Below, piece by piece: positions 4,023 through 60,550 of a DNA stretch of 64,000 nucleotides. The notes below the pieces were generated by a model. It worked only from the letters and a program-made list of their open reading frames with translations. It was not told where the DNA came from and did no database searches. Positions within the stretch are counted from its first letter, which is position 1, and every line of letters starts with the position of its first letter. Source of the stretch: Asticcacaulis tiandongensis. Lineage in GTDB: Bacteria; Pseudomonadota; Alphaproteobacteria; Caulobacterales; Caulobacteraceae. The DNA is taken from positions 310,001-374,000 of the forward strand of contig NZ_SSBC01000010.1 of assembly GCF_006475605.1 (NCBI RefSeq). The letters run 5' to 3'. Position numbers and translations under genes: made by a program.

Positions 4023-4033
4023 TCGCCTGTTTG

Positions 4034-4091
4034 CCCCCTCCGGCTCGACAAGCTCGCCACCTCCCCCGTACGCTGCGCTACAGGGGAGGAT
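4034..4091. repeat. Two-hairpin intergenic repeat, copy 2
   Basis: CCCCCTCCGG, then a stem built on CTCGACAAGCTCG, then CACCTCCCCCG followed by TACGCTGCGCTA and CAGGGGAGGAT. The second half is almost identical to copy 6 at 38852-38910. It lies between the convergent genes proC and miaE. Confidence 0.8.
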
Positions 4092-4117
4092 AAAGGAAGG
4101 CGTTACCTGCCTCGGGG

Positions 4118-22764: not shown

Positions 22765-22767
22765 TTT

Positions 22768-22810
22768 AATTAAAAAAGGGATGTCCTTTTAAGGGCGTCC
22801 CTTTTTTAAT
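22768..22810 (+). terminator. Terminator after tRNA-Pro
   Basis: ATTAAAAAAGGGATGTCC and GGGCGTCCCTTTTTTAAT form a long stem with a six-base loop, ending in TTTTTT. It begins four bases after the tRNA CCA end and can act in either direction. Confidence 0.88.
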
Positions 22811-22869
22811 TAGGGTGGGTAATGCGGTTGCATGGTCAAGGCTGGCAAGCAGAACCTGAGCCGGTGAAT

Positions 22870-23421
22870 TTACGGGCTTCGAGGTGGGGGCGGCTGCGGT
22901 TGACATGTAGACGGCAATCCTGAGAGCACCCGTTTTTCGGGCTTATCTCTCTGCCGTAGCGGATTTTCAGGAGTCTGAAAAGAGGGGGCGCGTAACGGCG
23001 TTGCCTGAGGCGCAAATGGCATCAGCAGCGCGTGCAGGGCCAGCAAATCGTCATCGTTGAAGGTTTCGCCCGCTATTGGGGCTTTTGCAGGGACCGCAGC
23101 CGCAGTGCTTAAGGCCCTGACGGGTTTCAGTTCAGGCGTTCTTTTGAGCACGGTGCGCACATAGTGTTTGTCTTCCTGAAGCTTAAGGCGGTTCATCAGG
23201 TGCTCACCGGCGAGAGCGGGTGCCCTGACTTCGGTAAGGTGAACACGCGCATAGATGCGTTCAATGAGGGTCGCGACGCGCACGGCGCGTTCCAGCTCAA
23301 GCATGTCTTCGGGAGGGGCCATGTTCTCGGCACAGATGAGCATCCGGTCGGCAAAGGCGCACAGGCGTGCTCTGCGGTCTTCGGGAGTCAACTGTTGCGG
23401 TGTCCGTGGGTTCATAGCCAT
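22870..23421 (-). CDS. Hypothetical protein, helical, about 184 residues
   Basis: I do not recognise a named family. The protein has a helical N-terminal part (TPEDRRARLCAFADRMLIC, then MAPPEDMLELERAVRVATLI), a basic middle (LKLQEDKHYVRTVLKRTPEL) and a Pro-rich, low-complexity C-terminus. No signal peptide or membrane segment is evident. The frame stays open up to 23583, but the extra N-terminal part is only the translation of an intergenic repeat, so I place the start at the ATG at 23421 (another is at 23415). It stands alone, convergent with tRNA-Pro and divergent from the VOC gene. Confidence 0.55.
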   Translation of the reverse strand: MAMNPRTPQQLTPEDRRARLCAFADRMLICAENMAPPEDMLELERAVRVATLIERIYARVHLTEVRAPALAGEHLMNRLKLQEDKHYVRTVLKRTPELKPVRALSTAAAVPAKAPIAGETFNDDDLLALHALLMPFAPQATPLRAPSFQTPENPLRQRDKPEKRVLSGLPSTCQPQPPPPRSP

Positions 23422-23508
23422 GGGATTATCATAGGGTGAGATGCGAAAACGGGGGTAAAACGGGTGGGAAAATGCGAAAAAAGAGCCACCCACGGCAGGC
23501 CGGTTTTG

Positions 23509-23601
23509 CCCCCGCCCCATGAAGGGGGGACTGGAAGATACCCCACCACCCCGCCGGTAAACCGGCGCGGTCCCCCTCCCCAATGAATTGGGGAGGTATG
23601 A
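23509..23601. repeat. Two-hairpin intergenic repeat, copy 4
   Basis: CCCCCGCCCCATGAAGGGGGG, then ATACCCCACCACCCCGCCGG with the stem GCCGGTAAACCGGC, then GCGGTCCCCCTCCCC and GGGGAGGTATGA. It shares the ACCCCACCACCCC and CGGTCCCCCTCCCC blocks with copies 5 and 8. Confidence 0.8.
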
Positions 23602-23664
23602 TTTTTTGCCTTAATGATGTCCGGTTTTGGTGGGGAAGTGTCGGATAACCAAAAGGAGGACGTG

Positions 23665-24737: not shown

Positions 24738-24767
24738 TCAGACTAAACGGCTATCGCGGGCAGTCAT
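24738..24767 (-). pseudogene. Possible start-codon remnant of a HepT-like (HEPN/DUF86) toxin gene
   Basis: On the minus strand the stop of the MntA-like gene overlaps a new ATG (ATGA), and the next codons read MTARDSRLV before a TGA. HEPN-domain (DUF86) toxins that partner MNT antitoxins usually begin in this way (M-x2-RD-x-R-L) with the same 4-base overlap. No continuation of the toxin is visible in any frame. The call rests on nine codons and the overlap only. Confidence 0.3.
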
Positions 24768-25054
24768 ATGGCGACGGCTTCGCGGACGACCTGATCGCGG
24801 AAGCGCGGGGGCAGGTCGTCAGGGGTGAGAACTTCGACACGCACCCCCAGTTGTTCCTCAAGTTCGACCTGAAGGCCGCAGATATCAAACAGGGTGGTTT
24901 CAGGGCGTGGCTCAACCAGAAGGTCGAGGTCGCTGGTTTCCTTATCGGTGCCTTTGAGGACTGAGCCGAAAACACGCGGATTTTTGAGCCCGAAGCGCTC
25001 AGTGAGGCGTCGGATACTTCTGCGGTTAAGGTTTAAGGCGTCAGACGGCTTCAT
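24764..25054 (-). CDS. MntA-like minimal nucleotidyltransferase (antitoxin family)
   Basis: A 96-residue protein of the minimal nucleotidyltransferase family. The motif VFGSVLKGTDKETSDLDLLV (about residues 28-47) contains the catalytic GS-x10-SDxDL signature, and a later LEEQLGVRVEVLTPDDLPP block supplies the usual third strand. In MntA-HepT toxin-antitoxin pairs this enzyme adenylylates the HEPN ribonuclease toxin and so silences it. Normally the toxin gene follows directly, but here only a short possible stub remains, so this is a solo antitoxin-like gene. It faces the DUF4844-like gene and starts close to the degraded VOC fragment. Confidence 0.8.
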   Translation of the reverse strand: MKPSDALNLNRRSIRRLTERFGLKNPRVFGSVLKGTDKETSDLDLLVEPRPETTLFDICGLQVELEEQLGVRVEVLTPDDLPPRFRDQVVREAVAI

Positions 25055-25075
25055 GGGTATGGAATGTACCCAATC

Positions 25076-25185
25076 ATGGCGCAGGTGGCAATCTGTCGTG
25101 TGAGGTGGCGCGACGCGTCTTTGAGGCCATGATGCAGATGCACAAGATCGATGTCGCCAAGATCGAGGCGGCTGTGCGGGGTTAG
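25076..25185 (+). pseudogene. Degraded 3' fragment of a second VOC gene
   Basis: Bases 25102-25185 match 24055-24138, the last 84 bases of the VOC gene including its stop, with four mismatches by eye. Just upstream, ATGGCGCAGGTGGC (25076-25089) resembles CTGGCGCAAGGTGGC at 24040-24054, with about 12 extra bases between the blocks. No start or 5' part of the gene is left. It is either the remnant of a tandem paralogue or a direct repeat left by an insertion between the copies. Confidence 0.75.
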
Positions 25186-25656
25186 GATATGGGGGCGCGT
25201 AATAGCCCTAAGGCTACATTCACACATTTGTTCAAAGCGCGAAAAGTGGACATGCTTGCAGCGCTACGGCGGAGCTATATTCCATTGACTTCCTAGCTCC
25301 ATTCCGCGTCAGCTACCGCTTGGAAGTAACGGGCCGCACATTTATTGGCGTCGCGATGTGAGCCTCTTCACCAAGAGTGTTAAGCTACCCGTCGTTGTTA
25401 ATCCACACCGTCGTCAATGCGAAGCAGTCTTGGGTAGTACAATGATTGCCAGCGCTATTAGCGGGGATTTCGACAACGCTTTCGTAAATTCGGAGATCAA
25501 CTACGAACCGCCTCACCACCTGCGCGCCTTATGGCGGATATTACAACCTCGAATCATTGCCTTGAAATACCAAAAAGACAATATAACTTGTTCTGTTCGG
25601 AAAAGGGCACCTCTATCTAGCGGTAGATATGCACCAGTGTGATAATCGGGGGAAGT
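25186..25656. other. 470-bp gap before the OLD-like gene
   Basis: No convincing gene. It includes a perfect 7-bp inverted repeat, GGAGCTA (25271-25277) and TAGCTCC (25294-25300), around a 16-base spacer. An open frame at 25358-25642 from a GTG has no recognisable features and I do not call it. The composition is more AT-rich than the surrounding core genome, as in the OLD-like gene that follows, whose promoter should lie here. Confidence 0.4.
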
Positions 25657-27303
25657 ATGCTTGAGTCAATTGAACTGAATTTCACCGAGACCGGTAAGCT
25701 CGTATTGCCCACGAAAGGTATTACGGTGTTCGTCGGTCCTAATAATTCAGGAAAGAGCCTTGTCCTCAAAGAAATTGAGGAAGCCTTCAGCCTATTCCAA
25801 GGGCCACTTAAATCTATAATTTTGAAAGACTTTCAGGTCTCGTGGCCCACGATAGAACAGGTAAATCTGTCCATAACAAAAAACAGTATTCGATCCTCGA
25901 AACAAGTACCCACTGGGCATGTTGAAATGGCGCGGATTAGCCAAGGGGGAAGAGAGGTCCACCACATCCACGAGGAATCCTTTAGATCCCAAGTAAAAAT
26001 CAGATCTAATAAACATTATCTGATGAATCAATATCTCAAATGGGGTGTGTTAAGGCTGGATGGACGATCCCGGTTCAATCTGACTAATGACCAATTAGGA
26101 GAAGATCTTCTCGGCCCGCCCCAGAATACCTTGGCTCATTTGTTTCAGGATGATCCGACGAGGCGTAAGGTTAGAAAGCTCGTCAATGAAGCTTTTGATC
26201 TCAATTTCGTTATCGATCCAACAAATCTTGGACAGCTAAGGGTCAGGCTTTCCACGAAACCGGTGCTTACAGATGAGCAATCCCTGAACGCGGAAGCACG
26301 GAAGTTTTTCTCTGAGGCCATCCACATTAAGGATGCGAGTGACGGTGTTCAAGCATTTACGGGTATCGTCACGGCCGTCTGTTCAGGTGAATTTCATACA
26401 ATTTTGATCGACGAGCCCGAAGCGTTTCTCCATCCGCCGCTGGCGCGAAAACTAGGTAAGAACTTAAGCGAGATCGCTGGTGAGCGCGATGGTATTCTAA
26501 TGGCATCTACACACAGCTCGGATTTTTTAATGGGCTGCGTTCAAGGTTCAACGCCTGTTCAGGTGGTTCGCCTCGAATATAGCAACGGTAAGTCACGCGC
26601 ACGCGTAATCAATCATAAGGTACTTGAGGGCTTCCTAAAGCGTCCCTTGATGCGGAGCGCGAACGTGATTTCCGCCTTGTTTCACGATGGTGTCGTGATC
26701 CTAGAGTCAGATAACGATCGTGCATTTTACTCGGAGATTTATTATCGCCTGTCAGAAGGGCGCTCCGGTTATCCCTCAATTCTATTCGTAAACGCACAGA
26801 ACAAGCAAACCATCAAGGACATCATGGGGCCATTGAGGGAATTTGGTGTTCCAGCGGCGGCCATTCCTGACATTGATATCGTGAAAGATGGAGGCAAGGT
26901 TTTTACAGACTGGCTGACAGGAGCCAAAATGCCGGAAATGCTCCATATCGGGTTGGGGCAGCAGCGTGCTTCAGTGCTCCAAGCCCTAAAAGAGTCCGGT
27001 AAGGACATGAAAAACGATGGCGGTCTGGAAATATTAGAAGGCGATAAGCTAGCGGCCGCAGATGAGTTTTTTAGCAGCCTCGAAAAATATGGCGTGTTTA
27101 CAGTGCGACGCGGTGAGCTGGAGGACTGGCTGCCAAATTTAAATGTGCCTGGTAAGAAAACAGATTGGACCATAGCGATGCTTGAACGACTAGGCGGCGA
27201 TCCCGTGGCAGAGGATTACGTCAAGGCGGGAACGGATGACGTATGGGCGTTCATTGAAAAGGTTGTTGGATGGATCAAAGACGCGGGTCGAAAGGGGACT
27301 TAA
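25657..27303 (+). CDS. OLD-like AAA ATPase with C-terminal TOPRIM-type domain (possible phage-defence nuclease)
   Basis: A 548-residue protein. The N-terminal ABC/AAA-type ATPase has Walker A GPNNSGKS (residues 27-34), a signature-like DASDGVQAFTG (about 228-238), Walker B TILIDEPEAFLHP (about 248-260) and a switch histidine in ASTHSSDF (about 287-294). The C-terminal part looks like a TOPRIM domain: VVILESDNDRAFYSEI supplies the catalytic Glu, and AAIPDIDIVKD the Asp-x-Asp. This is the layout of OLD-family nucleases, which include solo class 1 enzymes and the GajA, PtuA and AriA subunits of phage-defence systems. No UvrD helicase, HNH or AriB-like partner adjoins, so a class 1 or orphan form is likely. 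Start at the ATG after GGGGGAAG. Composition differs from the neighbours. Confidence 0.75.
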   Translation: MLESIELNFTETGKLVLPTKGITVFVGPNNSGKSLVLKEIEEAFSLFQGPLKSIILKDFQVSWPTIEQVNLSITKNSIRSSKQVPTGHVEMARISQGGREVHHIHEESFRSQVKIRSNKHYLMNQYLKWGVLRLDGRSRFNLTNDQLGEDLLGPPQNTLAHLFQDDPTRRKVRKLVNEAFDLNFVIDPTNLGQLRVRLSTKPVLTDEQSLNAEARKFFSEAIHIKDASDGVQAFTGIVTAVCSGEFHTILIDEPEAFLHPPLARKLGKNLSEIAGERDGILMASTHSSDFLMGCVQGSTPVQVVRLEYSNGKSRARVINHKVLEGFLKRPLMRSANVISALFHDGVVILESDNDRAFYSEIYYRLSEGRSGYPSILFVNAQNKQTIKDIMGPLREFGVPAAAIPDIDIVKDGGKVFTDWLTGAKMPEMLHIGLGQQRASVLQALKESGKDMKNDGGLEILEGDKLAAADEFFSSLEKYGVFTVRRGELEDWLPNLNVPGKKTDWTIAMLERLGGDPVAEDYVKAGTDDVWAFIEKVVGWIKDAGRKGT

Positions 27304-37507: not shown

Positions 37508-37591
37508 GCGCCTGTTCCCCCATGACCGGTATTAACCCTATCGTAGCATGAAAATCGGATTTGTCAGGGAGAGGCCGAGTGAAAAAGAAAG

Positions 37592-37656
37592 ATACCCCAC
37601 CACCCCGATCCTGACGGATCGCGGTCCCCCTCCCCGCCAAAGGCAGGGAGGAGTAG
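37592..37656. repeat. Two-hairpin intergenic repeat, copy 5
   Basis: ATACCCCACCACCCC, then the stem GATCCTGACGGATC, then GCGGTCCCCCTCCCC and the partner GGGAGGAG. The left and middle blocks match copies 4 and 8, but the loop sequence differs. Confidence 0.8.
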
Positions 37657-37699
37657 AAGGGGCAGCACCTATAAGCAGGGGGAGGTATGAAAGGGGGCG

Positions 37700-38788: not shown

Positions 38789-38851
38789 GATATTCCCCGC
38801 AATTATGTTTGCGGCAATGAATACCGTCAGGCAGGGGGAGTCAAGGGATTG

Positions 38852-38910
38852 CCCCCTCCGCCTCGACTTCGCTCGGCACCTCCCCCGTACGCTGCGCTAC
38901 AGGGGAGGAT
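38852..38910. repeat. Two-hairpin intergenic repeat, copy 6
   Basis: CCCCCTCCGCCTCGACTTCG followed by CTCGG, then CACCTCCCCCG, TACGCTGCGCTA and CAGGGGAGGAT. The right half is almost identical to copy 2 at 4034-4091. Confidence 0.8.
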
Positions 38911-38928
38911 GTTGTGAGAGGACAAAAT

Positions 38929-38960
38929 AAAACCGCCGGTCATGGTTGACCGACGGTTTT
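38929..38960 (-). terminator. Bidirectional terminator between the esterase gene and icd
   Basis: AAAACCGCCGGTCA pairs with TGACCGACGGTTTT around TGGT, with one imperfect pair. It is A-rich on the left and T-rich on the right. It lies about 80 bases past the icd stop on the minus strand, with a repeat in between. Confidence 0.8.
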
Positions 38961-38974
38961 AATGTTTAAGGGTT

Positions 38975-40254: not shown

Positions 40255-40474
40255 GAAGAATATCCTTTAATTAAAGTCAGATGGGCGGGAATGGTTCGCG
40301 CTTCCTATAGCCCCAAGGCCGCAGGGCTGCAAAGGGGAAAACGCGTGGCGCGGGGGTGGAGAGTGTTTTTACTCGTAAAATTGTGGTTTTGCGGATGCTG
40401 GTTTGTCACCCGTGAAGCGGTGTTGTTCTGGTGAAAATAATCGGGGTGAGAGAAGGGGGTTTTGGGGGGGGGAA

Positions 40475-40540
40475 GATGCCCCACCACCCCTTTGCATACG
40501 CAAAGCGGTCCCCCTCCCCATCACAGATGGGGAGGTATGA
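40475..40540. repeat. Two-hairpin intergenic repeat, copy 8
   Basis: ATGCCCCACCACCCC, the stem TTTGCATACGCAAA, GCGGTCCCCCTCCCCATC and the partner GATGGGGAGGTATGA. It lies just past the stop of the hfsH-like gene. Confidence 0.8.
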
Positions 40541-40543
40541 AGC

Positions 40544-53061: not shown

Positions 53062-53081
53062 GCCTCCTTAATCTGAAGGAT
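53062..53081 (+). promoter_or_regulatory. Palindromic motif upstream of the secreted-protein genes, copy 1
   Basis: GCCTCCTTAATCTGAAGGAT, with TCCT/AGGA arms. A close relative (17 of 20 bases) lies at 57704-57723. Both are in intergenic DNA of the same gene cluster, and GTGATTATTT occurs next to each. It could be an operator, perhaps for the LuxR-type regulator. Confidence 0.4.
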
Positions 53082-53142
53082 GACAGTCATGCGTGTCAGA
53101 TGGCTATCGTAAATCCCTGTAGTGTTAATTGCGGGAATTTAC

Positions 53143-54192
53143 ATGAAACCATATGCCGTGTCGTTGCTGTTCAGTGGGTGTGTGGCCTTGGCTCCGTTTG
53201 CGGCTTTGGCCCAGAGCGCGTCACCCAGACCCACCCTCAAGACTGCGCCGAAGGCGGTGGTGACTGTGGATGCCAAAAGGCTTGAGCAGTACAAGGCGAG
53301 GCAACTTGAGCCGGTATCACGGCTGGAGGCGCGGGCGCCACAACGCCTGGTACATCCGCGACGACAGGAAAATGCGGCGCAGCAGAAAGCGCGGGTAGCC
53401 GCAGCCAACGCCAAAACGAAAACGATTGCCACGATCACAGTGCCGCTTACGATCACCGGCCCGCATATTGCGCGCATTGATGGCGTGGATAACGGGCGTT
53501 ATGAACCGGGCGGGCAATACCAGATCCGCGGTAAGGGTTTCGGGACGCGTAAGGGCACGGTGTTCCTCAAGGAAAATGCGCTCGGTAAGTCCATTGCGCT
53601 CAACATTCTGCATTGGTCGGATGAGCGTATCTATGCCGAAATCCCTGCCGACCTCTCCGGCGTGCCGGATGTGCCGAAGGTAACATTGGTGGTCGGGCCG
53701 GTCGGGGCGAACGCGCTCGAAAACCGCAGCAATGGTTTCTATGCCGCGCGTGAGGAGCACAGGCTGACGGTGTTTCCGGCAGGGGTTCTGGGCTATCCCA
53801 AGGGCCGCTTTGCCGATACGGTGACCAATGCTACCAATGGTGCGACCATAAGGCGCTATGTCGAACAAGGCGCTAATGACGCCTGTTTTCAGCCGGGCAC
53901 CGACCGTATTGATACGACAAAGCTCAACCTCAAGCCCGGTTTCTGGGTGCATAGTTTCGATGTCTGGTTCCCCAGGCTCGAATCCCGTGTCGATACCGAC
54001 GTTGGCGAGATACGCTATACCGGCTTTGGCCAGTACAGCCACCGATGGGACGGCGATAACATTATGATTGACTGGGGGGTGCAGCGCAGGCGATCGGCAC
54101 CGTGGACCCTGTATGCAGGGGCGTCACAGTGTGAATCGATCTATCGCCTGACGCTGAATATCAACGGCCCGCGTGGTGTGCCACTCCGGTGA
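53143..54192 (+). CDS. Exported protein of unknown function with an IPT/TIG-like domain
   Basis: A 349-residue protein with a signal peptide (YAVSLLFSGCVALAPFAALA, cleavage after AQA/S). A basic Ala/Arg/Gln-rich linker (about residues 50-85) is followed by an IPT/TIG-like strand region: ITGPHIARIDGVDNGRYEPG, GQYQIRGKGFGTRKGTVFL and AEIPADLSGVPDVPKVTLVV. The C-terminal half has YVEQGANDACFQPGTDRIDT and aromatic strands ending in ESIYRLTLNINGPRGVPLR. I do not recognise the family. It overlaps the next gene by four bases. The IPT-like fold suggests binding or adhesion in the periplasm or outside the cell. Confidence 0.7.
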   Translation: MKPYAVSLLFSGCVALAPFAALAQSASPRPTLKTAPKAVVTVDAKRLEQYKARQLEPVSRLEARAPQRLVHPRRQENAAQQKARVAAANAKTKTIATITVPLTITGPHIARIDGVDNGRYEPGGQYQIRGKGFGTRKGTVFLKENALGKSIALNILHWSDERIYAEIPADLSGVPDVPKVTLVVGPVGANALENRSNGFYAAREEHRLTVFPAGVLGYPKGRFADTVTNATNGATIRRYVEQGANDACFQPGTDRIDTTKLNLKPGFWVHSFDVWFPRLESRVDTDVGEIRYTGFGQYSHRWDGDNIMIDWGVQRRRSAPWTLYAGASQCESIYRLTLNINGPRGVPLR

Positions 54193-54644
54193 CGGGTCAA
54201 CCGGTTTATGCACGGTGGCTGATCATTGGGTTGGTTGTTGCCCAGTGCGCATTTTTATGGTTTGGCGCCGATAAAATTAATGAGCGGCGGCGTTTCCTTG
54301 AGACGGCGCTGCGGGTGCAGGCCGAGACTATACATACATGGGAGGTTCCGCCCAGAGGCCGAAGCAGCACTATGCATCATGCGCTGATCGCTTTTGAAAC
54401 GCCGGAAGGGCGTCTGATTAATGCGCCTTACAGGACCCAGTTTAAATTTCTGGCACTTAAGGATCGGGAGATACTTGAGGTGGTGTATAAGCCGGGTGTG
54501 CCGCAGACGGCCATGCCTGCGGACTTTCTGCGCCTGTGGTTTGAGCCATTGCTGGCTGCCGGCTTTGCCGGTTTTTTCCTTTTACTGGGGTTGTTTATAC
54601 TGTGGCCCGGGCGGAAAGCTACATTGCCTCAGATTGTCAGTTAA
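54189..54644 (+). CDS. DUF3592-like membrane protein
   Basis: A 151-residue protein with two hydrophobic helices (WLIIGLVVAQCAFLWFG near the start and LLAAGFAGFFLLLGLFIL near the end) around an extracytoplasmic domain with RSSTMHHALIAFETPEGRLI and YKPGVPQTAMPADFLRLW. This is the layout of DUF3592 proteins, though the match is moderate. It starts at a GTG that overlaps the preceding stop (GTGA). Its stop codon interlocks with that of the convergent gene at 54641 (TTAA). It probably works with the exported protein encoded just upstream. Confidence 0.65.
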   Translation: MTGQPVYARWLIIGLVVAQCAFLWFGADKINERRRFLETALRVQAETIHTWEVPPRGRSSTMHHALIAFETPEGRLINAPYRTQFKFLALKDREILEVVYKPGVPQTAMPADFLRLWFEPLLAAGFAGFFLLLGLFILWPGRKATLPQIVS

Positions 54645-55468
54645 TTGCCGATGCAATTGGCTTCAGTGCGTTTGCAGTCATAGACAGAGTTGGGCAGGCT
54701 GAATTCAAAAACACGATCACCGTGTTTGGCCTCAATGCGCATCCGGACGCTGCTTTGGTTTTTATATTGAATCTGGTTGGCGGGCCAGCGGGTTCGGGCA
54801 CCTGAGACTGCTGTTACCTTCACGACCAGTTGCGTATCGCTTTCGCTGACGATTTCAAGCATTGAGCCGCCATAGGTTGTCCCGAGAATCCATCCGGCTG
54901 TACCGCCGGACAAGCCCTTGCCATTGATACGGTGCGTACTGCCCAGTTTGAAGACAATATTTTCGCGCTTGCCATCGACATTGCTGATGTAGCTGCCGTC
55001 GGCAAGTTTAACGAGCGGTGCTTGCGCCGACGGAACAATCAGTTGCCTTTTCTGTGTCAGGTCTGAGGGACGGTTTGACAGAACGGGGGTGCCTAGCGTC
55101 ATCGTTGGTTTTGTCCAGCTGAGGGTTGCCCGGCAGCCATAGGCCCAATTCACGCCAACACGGTTACGGCCCACCTGTCCCCAACCGCCACGCACCCACT
55201 GAGATTCAGGAAGCTTGTTAATCAGCTTTTTGAAGTCGTCACCGCGAAACAGTAAGTCGCCTCTGGCCACAAAATCCTTAGGGTAAGGCATGTCGGGAAT
55301 CTGAAATTGTGTCACAACAATGTAACCGCCGGAGCCTAATTCATCGGCAGGGCCGGTATAGGGTTCAAATACATTTCGGCATTTGACCGGTGTCGATTCT
55401 GTGGCCGCCATGGCGGGCAGGGCCACGAGGCACGAGGCTGATATGGCCGTTAAAAACAAAGCCTTCAT
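54641..55468 (-). CDS. Exported protein of unknown function (secreted-protein cluster, third gene)
   Basis: A 275-residue protein with a signal peptide (MKALFLTAISASCLVALPAM, cut near AMA/A). The mature part is beta-rich, with several Cys (KCRNVFEPYTG, WAYGCRATLSW, CKRTEANC) likely to form disulfides. HRINGKGLSGGTAGWILGTT, SMLEIVSESDTQLVVKVTA resemble a TIG-like domain similar to that of the 53143 gene, though this is only a resemblance. I do not recognise the family. It is the last of three minus-strand genes for exported proteins, nine bases after the preceding one. Confidence 0.65.
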   Translation of the reverse strand: MKALFLTAISASCLVALPAMAATESTPVKCRNVFEPYTGPADELGSGGYIVVTQFQIPDMPYPKDFVARGDLLFRGDDFKKLINKLPESQWVRGGWGQVGRNRVGVNWAYGCRATLSWTKPTMTLGTPVLSNRPSDLTQKRQLIVPSAQAPLVKLADGSYISNVDGKRENIVFKLGSTHRINGKGLSGGTAGWILGTTYGGSMLEIVSESDTQLVVKVTAVSGARTRWPANQIQYKNQSSVRMRIEAKHGDRVFEFSLPNSVYDCKRTEANCIGN

Positions 55469-55477
55469 TAGGTTCCC

Positions 55478-56500
55478 CTAGTTGTTGCGAAGCACGTGTT
55501 TGCGACCGCCGATTTCGAGTGTCGAGGTTTTCTGATCTGCGCCGTTCCACGACCCGGCGTGGCTGCGGCTGAACAGGTTTTCCGGCGCGCGGCCTTTGAC
55601 GACAATGCTGTACCAGCAGAAGTTCTGGCCGGATTTGTATTTGAAGCGAACGCTCAGCTCGACCGCCCTGCCTGTAAAGCCCACCGGCCTTTCGCCATAG
55701 CTGTGGTGCGTGGTGATCGGGGTTTCCCTAAGCTGATAATCACAGGCCCCATTATCAACCAGACTGATCTTGCGGCCATGAATCTGCCCGTCGTCTATGA
55801 TCTGGATGCGGTCTTCGGCCCAGCCCCCGCTGCCGGTATGGGTACCGCCTTTGGTATGGGCGCCGATCCAGTCATCCGCCGGACAGATGTCCGCCGTACC
55901 GACCTGCGTATTGACCCGCCCCTGAAACTGGAGACTGCCCTGTCCGCTGTTGGCGGCTTTAGCCGCACAGGCAACGCGCCTGAGCGGAGGGAACCAGCGC
56001 CCTGTACCCAGCGGCGAGGTTTTCAGCTCGGTATTAAAGCGTATGATGCAGGTGCCGGAAAAAAGGGTTACGCGTACGGTTTGCGTCAGGTGCTGTGAGA
56101 CACTATCCGGAACCTTGAATTCTGCCGTTGAACCTGTGGCATGAACCTTGATGAGATCGACCTTTATGGGGTCGGCCTTCGACCAGCTGTTGCCGCGTTG
56201 TGCCTTGGAATACTCAATATAGGCCGATTTTATGTCGATTTTCGTCTTGAGATAATCTGCCGCGCCGGGGGCCAGATCAATCCTGAGATTACCTGTTGGT
56301 GTGCCTGGATATATTTGTGTGGAGGCGATACGTCCGGTGCCGCAAGGATCTGGACTCAGGCGTTTGACTGGCCCGCGTAAAATATCAGGTGGCTGGCGCA
56401 GGGTTTCGCTCCGCGGAAGCGTTAGAGCGTGCGTTGATGAGGCCAGAAGAAAGCTGAGTGCCGTTAGGATGTGGGCACTACGAAGGAAAAGGGGACTCAT
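55478..56500 (-). CDS. Exported protein of unknown function (secreted-protein cluster, second gene)
   Basis: A 340-residue protein with a signal peptide (ILTALSFLLASSTHALTL). It contains several Cys, a WFPPLRRVACAAKA segment in mid protein, ADICPADDWIGAHTKGGTHT and a C-terminal YKSGQNFCWYSIVVKGRAPE region. Its order of features follows the gene upstream (56497-57660), which has RWFPPVNTTVCSQ, FCGPWTTYHYAD and a matching Cys-rich end, so the two are divergent paralogues. They overlap by four bases. I know no family for them. The Cys pattern suggests periplasmic or secreted, disulfide-bonded proteins. Confidence 0.65.
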   Translation of the reverse strand: MSPLFLRSAHILTALSFLLASSTHALTLPRSETLRQPPDILRGPVKRLSPDPCGTGRIASTQIYPGTPTGNLRIDLAPGAADYLKTKIDIKSAYIEYSKAQRGNSWSKADPIKVDLIKVHATGSTAEFKVPDSVSQHLTQTVRVTLFSGTCIIRFNTELKTSPLGTGRWFPPLRRVACAAKAANSGQGSLQFQGRVNTQVGTADICPADDWIGAHTKGGTHTGSGGWAEDRIQIIDDGQIHGRKISLVDNGACDYQLRETPITTHHSYGERPVGFTGRAVELSVRFKYKSGQNFCWYSIVVKGRAPENLFSRSHAGSWNGADQKTSTLEIGGRKHVLRNN

Positions 56501-57660
56501 TTGAGGTTCAGCCTTTGCTCCTGAAGTTTGCCATTATCATCAAGCCAGCGGAAAACGGACGCGGATTGATCATGAGTCATGCGTACGGTTTGGGTGGGGC
56601 GGCCTGACGCGGTCCATTTTACGGGCGTCGACCAGTCTGCCGGAAAACCGCGCGGAACCGAGGCTTCGAACAACAGATGGTAGGGGCACATGGCGCCGCC
56701 GCGCGTTCTGGAATACCAATCGACCGAGATATGCGTGCTGGCTCTGGAGACGCCGTTAGCGACCTTATCCTTAAGGGCATATGGCCCGCCCTGACCCTCT
56801 GAGACGGCTGCCTGAGTGATGGTTTCTTCAAATGTGCAGGCGTCACTTGTCAGATGGACAATGCCGACGCGTATGTCGCGGGCCACGCCGCCGTGCCATA
56901 TTTCATAGGCATCACGGCGCTTATTGGACACTCGGCCGTTTGAATCAATCAGGGCCGCATCTGCGTAATGATAGGTTGTCCAGGGGCCGCAGAAATTGGT
57001 GCGCATGCCGCCAAAGCGTGTCTGTGCGGTGGGTCCGGGCTGAAATTCACGCCACAGATGCCGGTTCGGGCCTTCGGGTTGGCTGCAAACGGTTGTATTT
57101 ACAGGCGGAAACCAGCGCTGGCGAACATATTTTGGTTCAATATCCATGCTGAAATGTGTGTTGCACTGGCTGGTTTCAACGTGCACCGTAACCTTCTGTG
57201 GCAGGAAGGGTTCCTTGAGGGGCGGGACGCGGAATTCCACCCAGTCGGTCGTGCCTGTGGGAATGGCACCCTGTACGGTTTCGACCGAAGCCACCCGCCA
57301 GTGGCTATAGGGATTAACCACTTCATATGAAAAATAGACTTTTTTGATTGTCGGACCGGTCGTGTTCTGCTGGGCATCGGCAGGAATGCCATAAAGCACT
57401 TGATTGCCGGTTCTCGCCACGACCGGCGCGGCGGCGCGTTTGGGTTGCGTGCTGACAAAAAAAAGCCCGCCGGGGATCAGTTTTTCGGAATGTTTGAAGT
57501 TATCAATCCGGCATAAGGTGGCGGCCTTATTAAACGCGATGTTGTTAGGGATTTGCCTGACGCTGGTGGTGGGCCTGTTGATGGTCTGAGCGTGCAGCGG
57601 CACGCTAACAAAACTGAAAATCAACGACGGGATCAGCATCAATGAGCGCATTTGCAACAT
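56497..57660 (-). CDS. Exported protein of unknown function (secreted-protein cluster, first gene)
   Basis: A 387-residue protein with a signal peptide (LMLIPSLIFSFVSVPLHAQ). The mature part has VYFSYEVVNPYSHWRVASVE, a DWVEFRVPPLKEPFLPQK block, WFPPVNTTVCSQPEG, MRTNFCGPWTTYHYADAALI, and a C-terminal segment with GGAMCPYHLLFEASVPRGF and MTHDQSASVFRWLDDNGKL. At least six Cys are spread along the mature chain. It is a paralogue of the next gene and probably heads the three-gene minus-strand operon. The two ATG codons at 57660 and 57651 are both possible starts. Function unknown. A palindromic motif shared with 53062-53081 lies 44 bases upstream. Confidence 0.65.
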   Translation of the reverse strand: MLQMRSLMLIPSLIFSFVSVPLHAQTINRPTTSVRQIPNNIAFNKAATLCRIDNFKHSEKLIPGGLFFVSTQPKRAAAPVVARTGNQVLYGIPADAQQNTTGPTIKKVYFSYEVVNPYSHWRVASVETVQGAIPTGTTDWVEFRVPPLKEPFLPQKVTVHVETSQCNTHFSMDIEPKYVRQRWFPPVNTTVCSQPEGPNRHLWREFQPGPTAQTRFGGMRTNFCGPWTTYHYADAALIDSNGRVSNKRRDAYEIWHGGVARDIRVGIVHLTSDACTFEETITQAAVSEGQGGPYALKDKVANGVSRASTHISVDWYSRTRGGAMCPYHLLFEASVPRGFPADWSTPVKWTASGRPTQTVRMTHDQSASVFRWLDDNGKLQEQRLNLK

Positions 57661-57703: not shown

Positions 57704-57723
57704 GCCTCCTCAATCTGGAGGAG
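57704..57723. promoter_or_regulatory. Palindromic motif in the divergent promoter region, copy 2
   Basis: GCCTCCTCAATCTGGAGGAG, with CCTCC/GGAGG arms. It matches copy 1 (53062-53081) at 17 of 20 bases. It lies between the minus-strand secreted-protein operon and the plus-strand ScsB-like gene, so it could act on either or both. Confidence 0.4.
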
Positions 57724-57821
57724 GGAGGTGATTATTTATAAGCTTAAGGCGTGTTCATTGAGGAAAGCAGACGGAAATGCGTGTGGCGTGCGTTTAATGC
57801 CTGATCACGGAAGATATACGC

Positions 57822-60512: not shown

Positions 60513-60550
60513 TAAAAAAACCGCCAGTCAGATAACTGGCGGTTTTTTTT
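60513..60550 (+). terminator. Bidirectional terminator between the redoxin and autotransporter genes
   Basis: ACCGCCAGT (60520-60527 region) pairs with ACTGGCGGT (60534-60542), flanked by seven A and eight T. It lies between two convergent genes and can serve both. Confidence 0.9.

Follow-up and report, generated by a model that had tools for sequence, protein, structure and literature searches.

An orphan cluster of five genes for predicted exported and membrane proteins lies between two copies of an inverted repeat in Asticcacaulis tiandongensis

Examination of a 64,000-nucleotide window of the 3.22-Mb Asticcacaulis tiandongensis genome (G000:C10:310001-374000, G000 being this genome in our collection) revealed a compact cluster of five genes at 53143-57660, arranged as two convergent transcription units. 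The plus-strand unit comprises P0001 (53143..54192, 349 residues), encoding a predicted exported protein, and P0002 (54189..54644, 151 residues), encoding a predicted membrane protein. The minus-strand unit comprises P0005 (56497..57660, 387 residues), P0004 (55478..56500, 340 residues), and P0003 (54641..55468, 275 residues), each encoding a predicted exported protein. All five open reading frames lie where a first-pass annotation, made from the DNA letters alone, had placed them, and the interlocked stop codons it described between the two arms (TTAA, 54641-54644) are exact. The four-base overlaps it had reported on both arms are also exact for P0001/P0002 (GTGA, 54189-54192) and P0004/P0005 (ATGA, 56497-56500), but P0003 and P0004 are 9 bp apart and do not overlap.

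With codon usage scored against four neighboring genes, the annotated frame of every gene (0.04 to 0.10) outscored its five alternatives, all of which were negative, and P0001 to P0005 therefore look like real genes. The genes themselves are not explicable by chance; the unity of the five as one system is a separate question. Hydropathy revealed an N-terminal hydrophobic stretch in P0001, P0003, and P0005, while the N terminus of P0004 resembles a signal peptide by eye yet fell below the hydropathy threshold used. Outside this stretch P0001 has two cysteines, both in its C-terminal part, P0003 has four, and P0004 and P0005 have six each; the minus-strand trio, initially described as Cys-rich, thus does carry cysteines, although their enrichment is just moderate. 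Searches of Pfam, NCBIfam, PHROGs, and PADLOC yielded an accepted family for none of the five proteins and gave no pathway, as the first-pass annotation had likewise recognized none. No account of such a cluster was found in papers under open license.

A feature new relative to that annotation is a 20-bp inverted repeat present in both of the outer promoter regions that bracket the cluster. Copy 1 (53063..53082, plus strand, CCTCCTT-AATCTG-AAGGATG, 6/7 pairs) ends within 62 bp before P0001. Copy 2 (57705..57724, plus strand, CCTCCTC-AATCTG-GAGGAGG, 7/7 pairs) precedes by 43 bp the start of P0005, read on the minus strand, and by 99 bp that of P0007, a flanking gene of the DsbD type. The common core, GCCTCCTYAATCTGRAGGA, occupies 53062-53080 and 57704-57722. 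Arms of seven bases enclose the loop AATCTG, and a stem pair that is T-A in one copy is C-G in its partner; as minimal RNA hairpins they were estimated at -4.1 and -13 kcal/mol. With up to three mismatches allowed, these were the only two sites in the window, compared to 0.03 expected in shuffles, and the whole genome held two sites at zero mismatches, none at one or two, and ten at three. The alignment score of the two intergenic regions was reached by 3 of 2000 shuffles of the first leader, a result of moderate significance. The repeat was not found upstream of the DsbD orthologues of two same-genus genomes, G015 and G011, so copy 2 belongs with the cluster and not with DsbD. The shared palindrome is the best evidence, of moderate strength and sequence-based, that both arms may form one regulated unit, and it suggests that the cluster genes are switched on together. 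Our tentative best account of the locus, held at somewhat less than even odds, is a group of cell-envelope proteins that is restricted to this lineage and regulated jointly.

Several observations weigh against this reading. The pattern was derived from the two sites, and the zero-mismatch count is thus partly by construction. The ten three-mismatch sites compare with one for a reversed-pattern control, but relatives have a similar excess, so these sites are not informative. When the 31 intergenic regions of the window were compared on both strands, 7 of 930 comparisons shared at least 17 of 19 bases, the pair of P0001 and P0005 leaders included; of the six remaining pairs, at least three represent one interspersed repeat. 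Of the three TCCT-N8-AGGA motifs in the window, two belong to these repeats, and 4 of 100 shuffles also reached three. Outside the repeat, a first hint of further likeness between the two leaders did not prove significant, 219 of 2000 shuffles being as good. Finally, no copy of the repeat was found before P0006, the adjacent candidate regulator gene, and nothing ties P0006 to the repeat, which is known by its position and symmetry.

These considerations bear on the main rival, in which there is no system at all, only unrelated orphan genes gathered at a permissive site; the palindrome would then be coincidental or the remnant of a decayed repeat. Several intergenic repeats are indeed present in the window. 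However, at up to two mismatches this one is confined in the genome to the two outer promoters, each arm is tightly packed, two of the genes are paralogues, and all five products are exported or membrane proteins; we regard the rival as doubtful, though it deserves serious weight. Elsewhere in the window, a AAGATACCCCACCACCC-type stretch recurs in the intergenic regions 22765-23613, 37508-37699, and 40435-40543 with 17 to 19 of 19 bases alike and represents an interspersed repeat of this genome, and the intergenic regions 4023-4117 and 38789-38961 have CACCTCCCCCGTACGCTGC in common, exactly.

The paralogy had been proposed in the first-pass annotation for two of the exported proteins and is well supported for P0004 and P0005, which matched by BLASTP with an expectation value (E) of 3e-8 (26% over 125 residues) and found each other in searches of the whole genome (2.1e-5 from P0004, 1.3e-5 from P0005). 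They have in common the motif RWFPP-x5-C and the order of their six cysteines, four of which align in the same columns. Neither protein, nor P0003, matched a known family in the libraries searched. A PDB search with P0004, P0005, or their alignment gave nothing below E 1. For P0003, LPMO_10 was rejected (E 0.2, under the family cut-off), and, as to a TIG-type domain, a match to cyclodextrin glucanotransferases (CGTases) had an E of 0.55 and ranked behind an unrelated best match at 0.5. Profile comparison found no kinship of P0003 with the P0004/P0005 pair or with P0001 and its single homologue, P0009, and none between these two groups.

P0001 had been described as IPT-like, and this is supported by a weak match: residues 119-178 aligned with CGTase residues 508-564, in domain D (phmmer E 0.0025, or 0.018 with a two-row profile). 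Domain D is a TIG-type domain, and P0001 probably carries a TIG-like domain on this sequence resemblance, although a search of Pfam-A at E up to 10 returned no family match, TIG/IPT included. Unlike the CGTases, P0001 has no catalytic domains, and its remainder is related to P0009 alone. The latter emerged from a search of 398 genomes of the phylum (E up to 0.01), in which P0001 matched four other genomes and only G699, from another class, strongly (9.2e-8). P0009 of G699 is a true homologue over 236 residues (24%, E 8e-12) and, like P0001, is exported. It ends a row of three tight genes (L085 8737-11251), following genes for a CsgG-type lipoprotein and a MucB/RseB-type protein, with a 4-bp overlap; these neighbors are unrelated to P0002-P0005. 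A search of 148 relatives of G699 did not recover P0009. The other three phylum matches were not retained, that in G681 (0.0037) falling in a LacI-type gene and those in G664 and G542 (E up to 0.01) counting among the weak matches judged to be chance.

The description of P0002 as DUF3592-like was borne out through an intermediate. Its sole plasmid match was an annotated DUF3592 protein of Phyllobacterium (E 0.03), to which it aligned over 100 residues with an E of 2e-11, and this partner belongs to PF12158 (E 7e-9). The PF12158 profile itself did not reach P0002, nor did a profile of five PF12158-type sequences from relatives, with 167 of 500 segment-wise shuffles outscoring P0002. Hydrophobic segments begin near residues 5-10 and 116-123, so that, as in DUF3592 proteins, two predicted membrane segments flank a soluble part; the one cysteine lies within the first of them. 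We conclude that P0002 is a remote DUF3592 protein, as judged by homology to a member.

We examined the distribution of the cluster in a set of 100 genomes consisting of its own, 24 of the same genus, and the rest from the family and order. P0004 was found in its own genome only (E up to 0.001), and no convincing P0001, P0003, P0004, or P0005 was found in the 99 relatives, where P0002 was sought via PF12158 only. Weak short matches at E up to 0.1 occurred in 5 other genomes for P0005, 11 for P0001, and 14 for P0003, and were judged to be chance. The best for P0005 (0.0014) covered 72 residues within an 873-residue frame, and the best for P0001 (5.4e-4) had five stops inside. Among the P0003 matches (best 4.3e-4), 6 of 11 loci translated showed one common stretch, which was antisense to a glutamyl-tRNA synthetase-type gene in all four of these six loci that were checked; P0003 DNA had no significant similarity to the glutamyl-tRNA synthetase-type gene, and no RNA family was found at the stretch. 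Across 385 genomes of the class, P0001 was present in one, its own, and matches of the P0004/P0005 alignment in nine others (E up to 0.05) were likewise attributed to chance, the best (4.3e-4) spanning 45 columns with a stop. No relative was found in a genome contig collection for P0005 or the P0001/P0009 alignment, in a viral contig collection for P0001, P0003, or the P0004/P0005 alignment, in a phage collection for P0005, or in a plasmid collection for P0001, P0004, P0005, or P0009; P0003 matched one unannotated plasmid record at E 0.2.

Co-occurrence of the set elsewhere, which the first-pass annotation had anticipated for a true system, was therefore not borne out: no other genome was found with even two of the five genes, again with P0002 sought via PF12158 only. 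This agrees with the no-system rival. An orphan set cannot pass a test of co-occurrence, however, and while its lack speaks against a system conserved between genomes, it does not weigh against one restricted to a lineage. That the genes are orphans points to rapid evolution or to acquisition, in the manner of proteins exposed at the cell surface. An orphan, fast-evolving, exported paralogous pair beside a small membrane protein could also signify a set for secreted antagonism or immunity, in which P0003-P0005 would be effectors and P0002 their membrane partner, but we consider this improbable, since no toxin, secretion, or defense family was found with Pfam, NCBIfam, PHROGs, or PADLOC and the membrane protein gene sits on the other arm.

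Upstream of copy 1 lies P0006 (51867..53051, plus strand, 394 residues), the candidate regulator of the cluster, with a C-terminal GerE-like helix-turn-helix. Its assignment as a LuxR-type regulator was weakly confirmed: the GerE match in Pfam (4.7e-4, 20.2 bits) is below the 23.5-bit cut-off, but 87 plasmid records contain full-length relatives (31% at most) annotated as helix-turn-helix regulators, and one of the plasmid relatives exceeds the GerE cut-off. Genes for surface or exported proteins occurred within 7 kb of P0006 relatives in five of seven plasmid neighborhoods, a count made without a control set and with two of the five positives near-identical. These were a Mesorhizobium neighborhood (YadA-like protein and autotransporter), one of Phyllobacterium (autotransporter), two of Rhizobium with the same Ig-like gene, and one of Rhizobium with an ADYC protein; two Burkholderia neighborhoods lacked such genes. 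We treat these neighborhoods as a lead. The neighboring genes, including that for the ADYC protein (BLASTP), had no detectable kinship to P0001-P0005. On the Rhizobium plasmid (L156 5459-6698), the genes beside the LuxR relative encode the ADYC protein, which is exported, and a second exported protein, small and built of repeated NAITA units.

Downstream of copy 2 are P0007 (57822..59846, plus strand), a DsbD/ScsB-like membrane electron transporter, and P0008 (59871..60494, plus strand), an exported redoxin (AhpC-TSA by Pfam) that is kept beside P0007 in relatives. The ScsB-like protein and redoxin of the first-pass annotation were thus confirmed, P0007 having PF11412, PF02683, and PF13899 (DsbD_N, DsbD_TM, and a thioredoxin-like domain) at 63.4, 56.6, and 60 bits, all above cut-off. 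A ScsB-peroxiredoxin pair of Caulobacter is reported by Cho et al. 2012, as cited in PMC3672137, and P0007 followed by P0008 resembles that pair, a likeness that concerns these flanking genes and not P0001-P0005. An autotransporter gene follows P0008, and a strong terminator-like hairpin of 15 pairs and then a T run (60514-60549) lies between the two.

That annotation had further proposed that the disulfide-reducing system suits the exported proteins, which would make them substrates of the ScsB-like protein and redoxin. Adjacency, even cysteine numbers, and the three domains of P0007 are all consistent with this. In G015, however, P0007, P0008, and the autotransporter all have orthologues (60, 70, and 54% identity) that stand together without the cluster, and in G011 the same holds for P0007 and P0008 (60 and 72%). 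Upstream of DsbD there is instead a tRNA-Val gene preceded by an HU-type gene in G015, and a tRNA-Met gene in G011, whose contig starts 0.6 kb before DsbD. The pair is therefore independent of the cluster, P0007 is probably not part of it, and a second DsbD-type gene (41%) lies elsewhere in the genome (G000:C17); the substrate link is accordingly not supported, and we put little faith in it. The same comparison indicates that the cluster was added here, or lost there, at a variable spot beside a conserved pair, and such variability is also what a chance gathering of unrelated genes would predict.

Upstream of the locus is an efflux operon with a CusA/CzcA family permease (1568 compared to a cut-off of 701 bits) and an RND adaptor above cut-off, so the cluster could be seen as periplasmic metal or redox proteins of a metal or oxidative envelope-stress module set between efflux operon and DsbD-redoxin pair. 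Repeat copy 2 does face DsbD as well, and PMC8900818 deals with copper in relation to Scs proteins, one of which, a Caulobacter ScsC, is reported to bind copper(I). Yet none of P0001-P0005 matched a metal-binding family in Pfam or NCBIfam, both flanking units are conserved kinds of genes, and DsbD and redoxin occur without the cluster; we consider such a module unlikely. Farther upstream, at 24764-27303, a nucleotidyltransferase-domain gene lies near that of an AAA ATPase with an OLD-like TOPRIM domain where the G+C is lower, at 0.51 to 0.52, and this may be a defense or toxin-antitoxin island.

The lineage-restricted, co-regulated envelope set that we favor would work as follows. One regulator, most simply P0006, would bind both repeats and switch both arms jointly. 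P0001, P0003, P0004, and P0005 would be exported and, given their even cysteine numbers (2, 4, 6, and 6), would form internal disulfides, acting as beta-rich binding or surface proteins with P0002 as an inner-membrane partner. The most likely reading of their role is that of envelope proteins, stabilized by disulfides, that bind a target beyond the inner membrane. It must be set against this that the binding or surface role is conjecture from a single weak domain match, as structure prediction did not provide the hoped-for route to identity: AlphaFold2 reached mean predicted local distance difference test (pLDDT) scores of 37.6 for P0005, modeled from a two-row alignment, and 35.8 for P0001, modeled from its sequence alone, and neither model was usable, in P0001 for an Ig-like beta fold. 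A bolder version, which we rate as a long shot, would be a secreted envelope assembly of a new kind, in which four disulfide-held exported proteins and a membrane partner face inward between two dedicated operators under a PAS/GAF-like LuxR sensor, each lineage's version being unrecognizably divergent.

The first-pass proposal is therefore supported in part: as to its real genes, the paralogy of P0004 and P0005, the TIG and DUF3592 likenesses, and, indirectly through the palindrome, common control, but not as to the disulfide link or co-occurrence. Narrowly spread, fast-evolving clusters of genes for exported proteins are a large unexplained share of genomes, and archaeal clusters of such genes are termed dark matter islands in PMC4158269. 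Here, two matching palindromes and a neighboring regulator provide a direct handle on the unity of the cluster and the timing of its expression.

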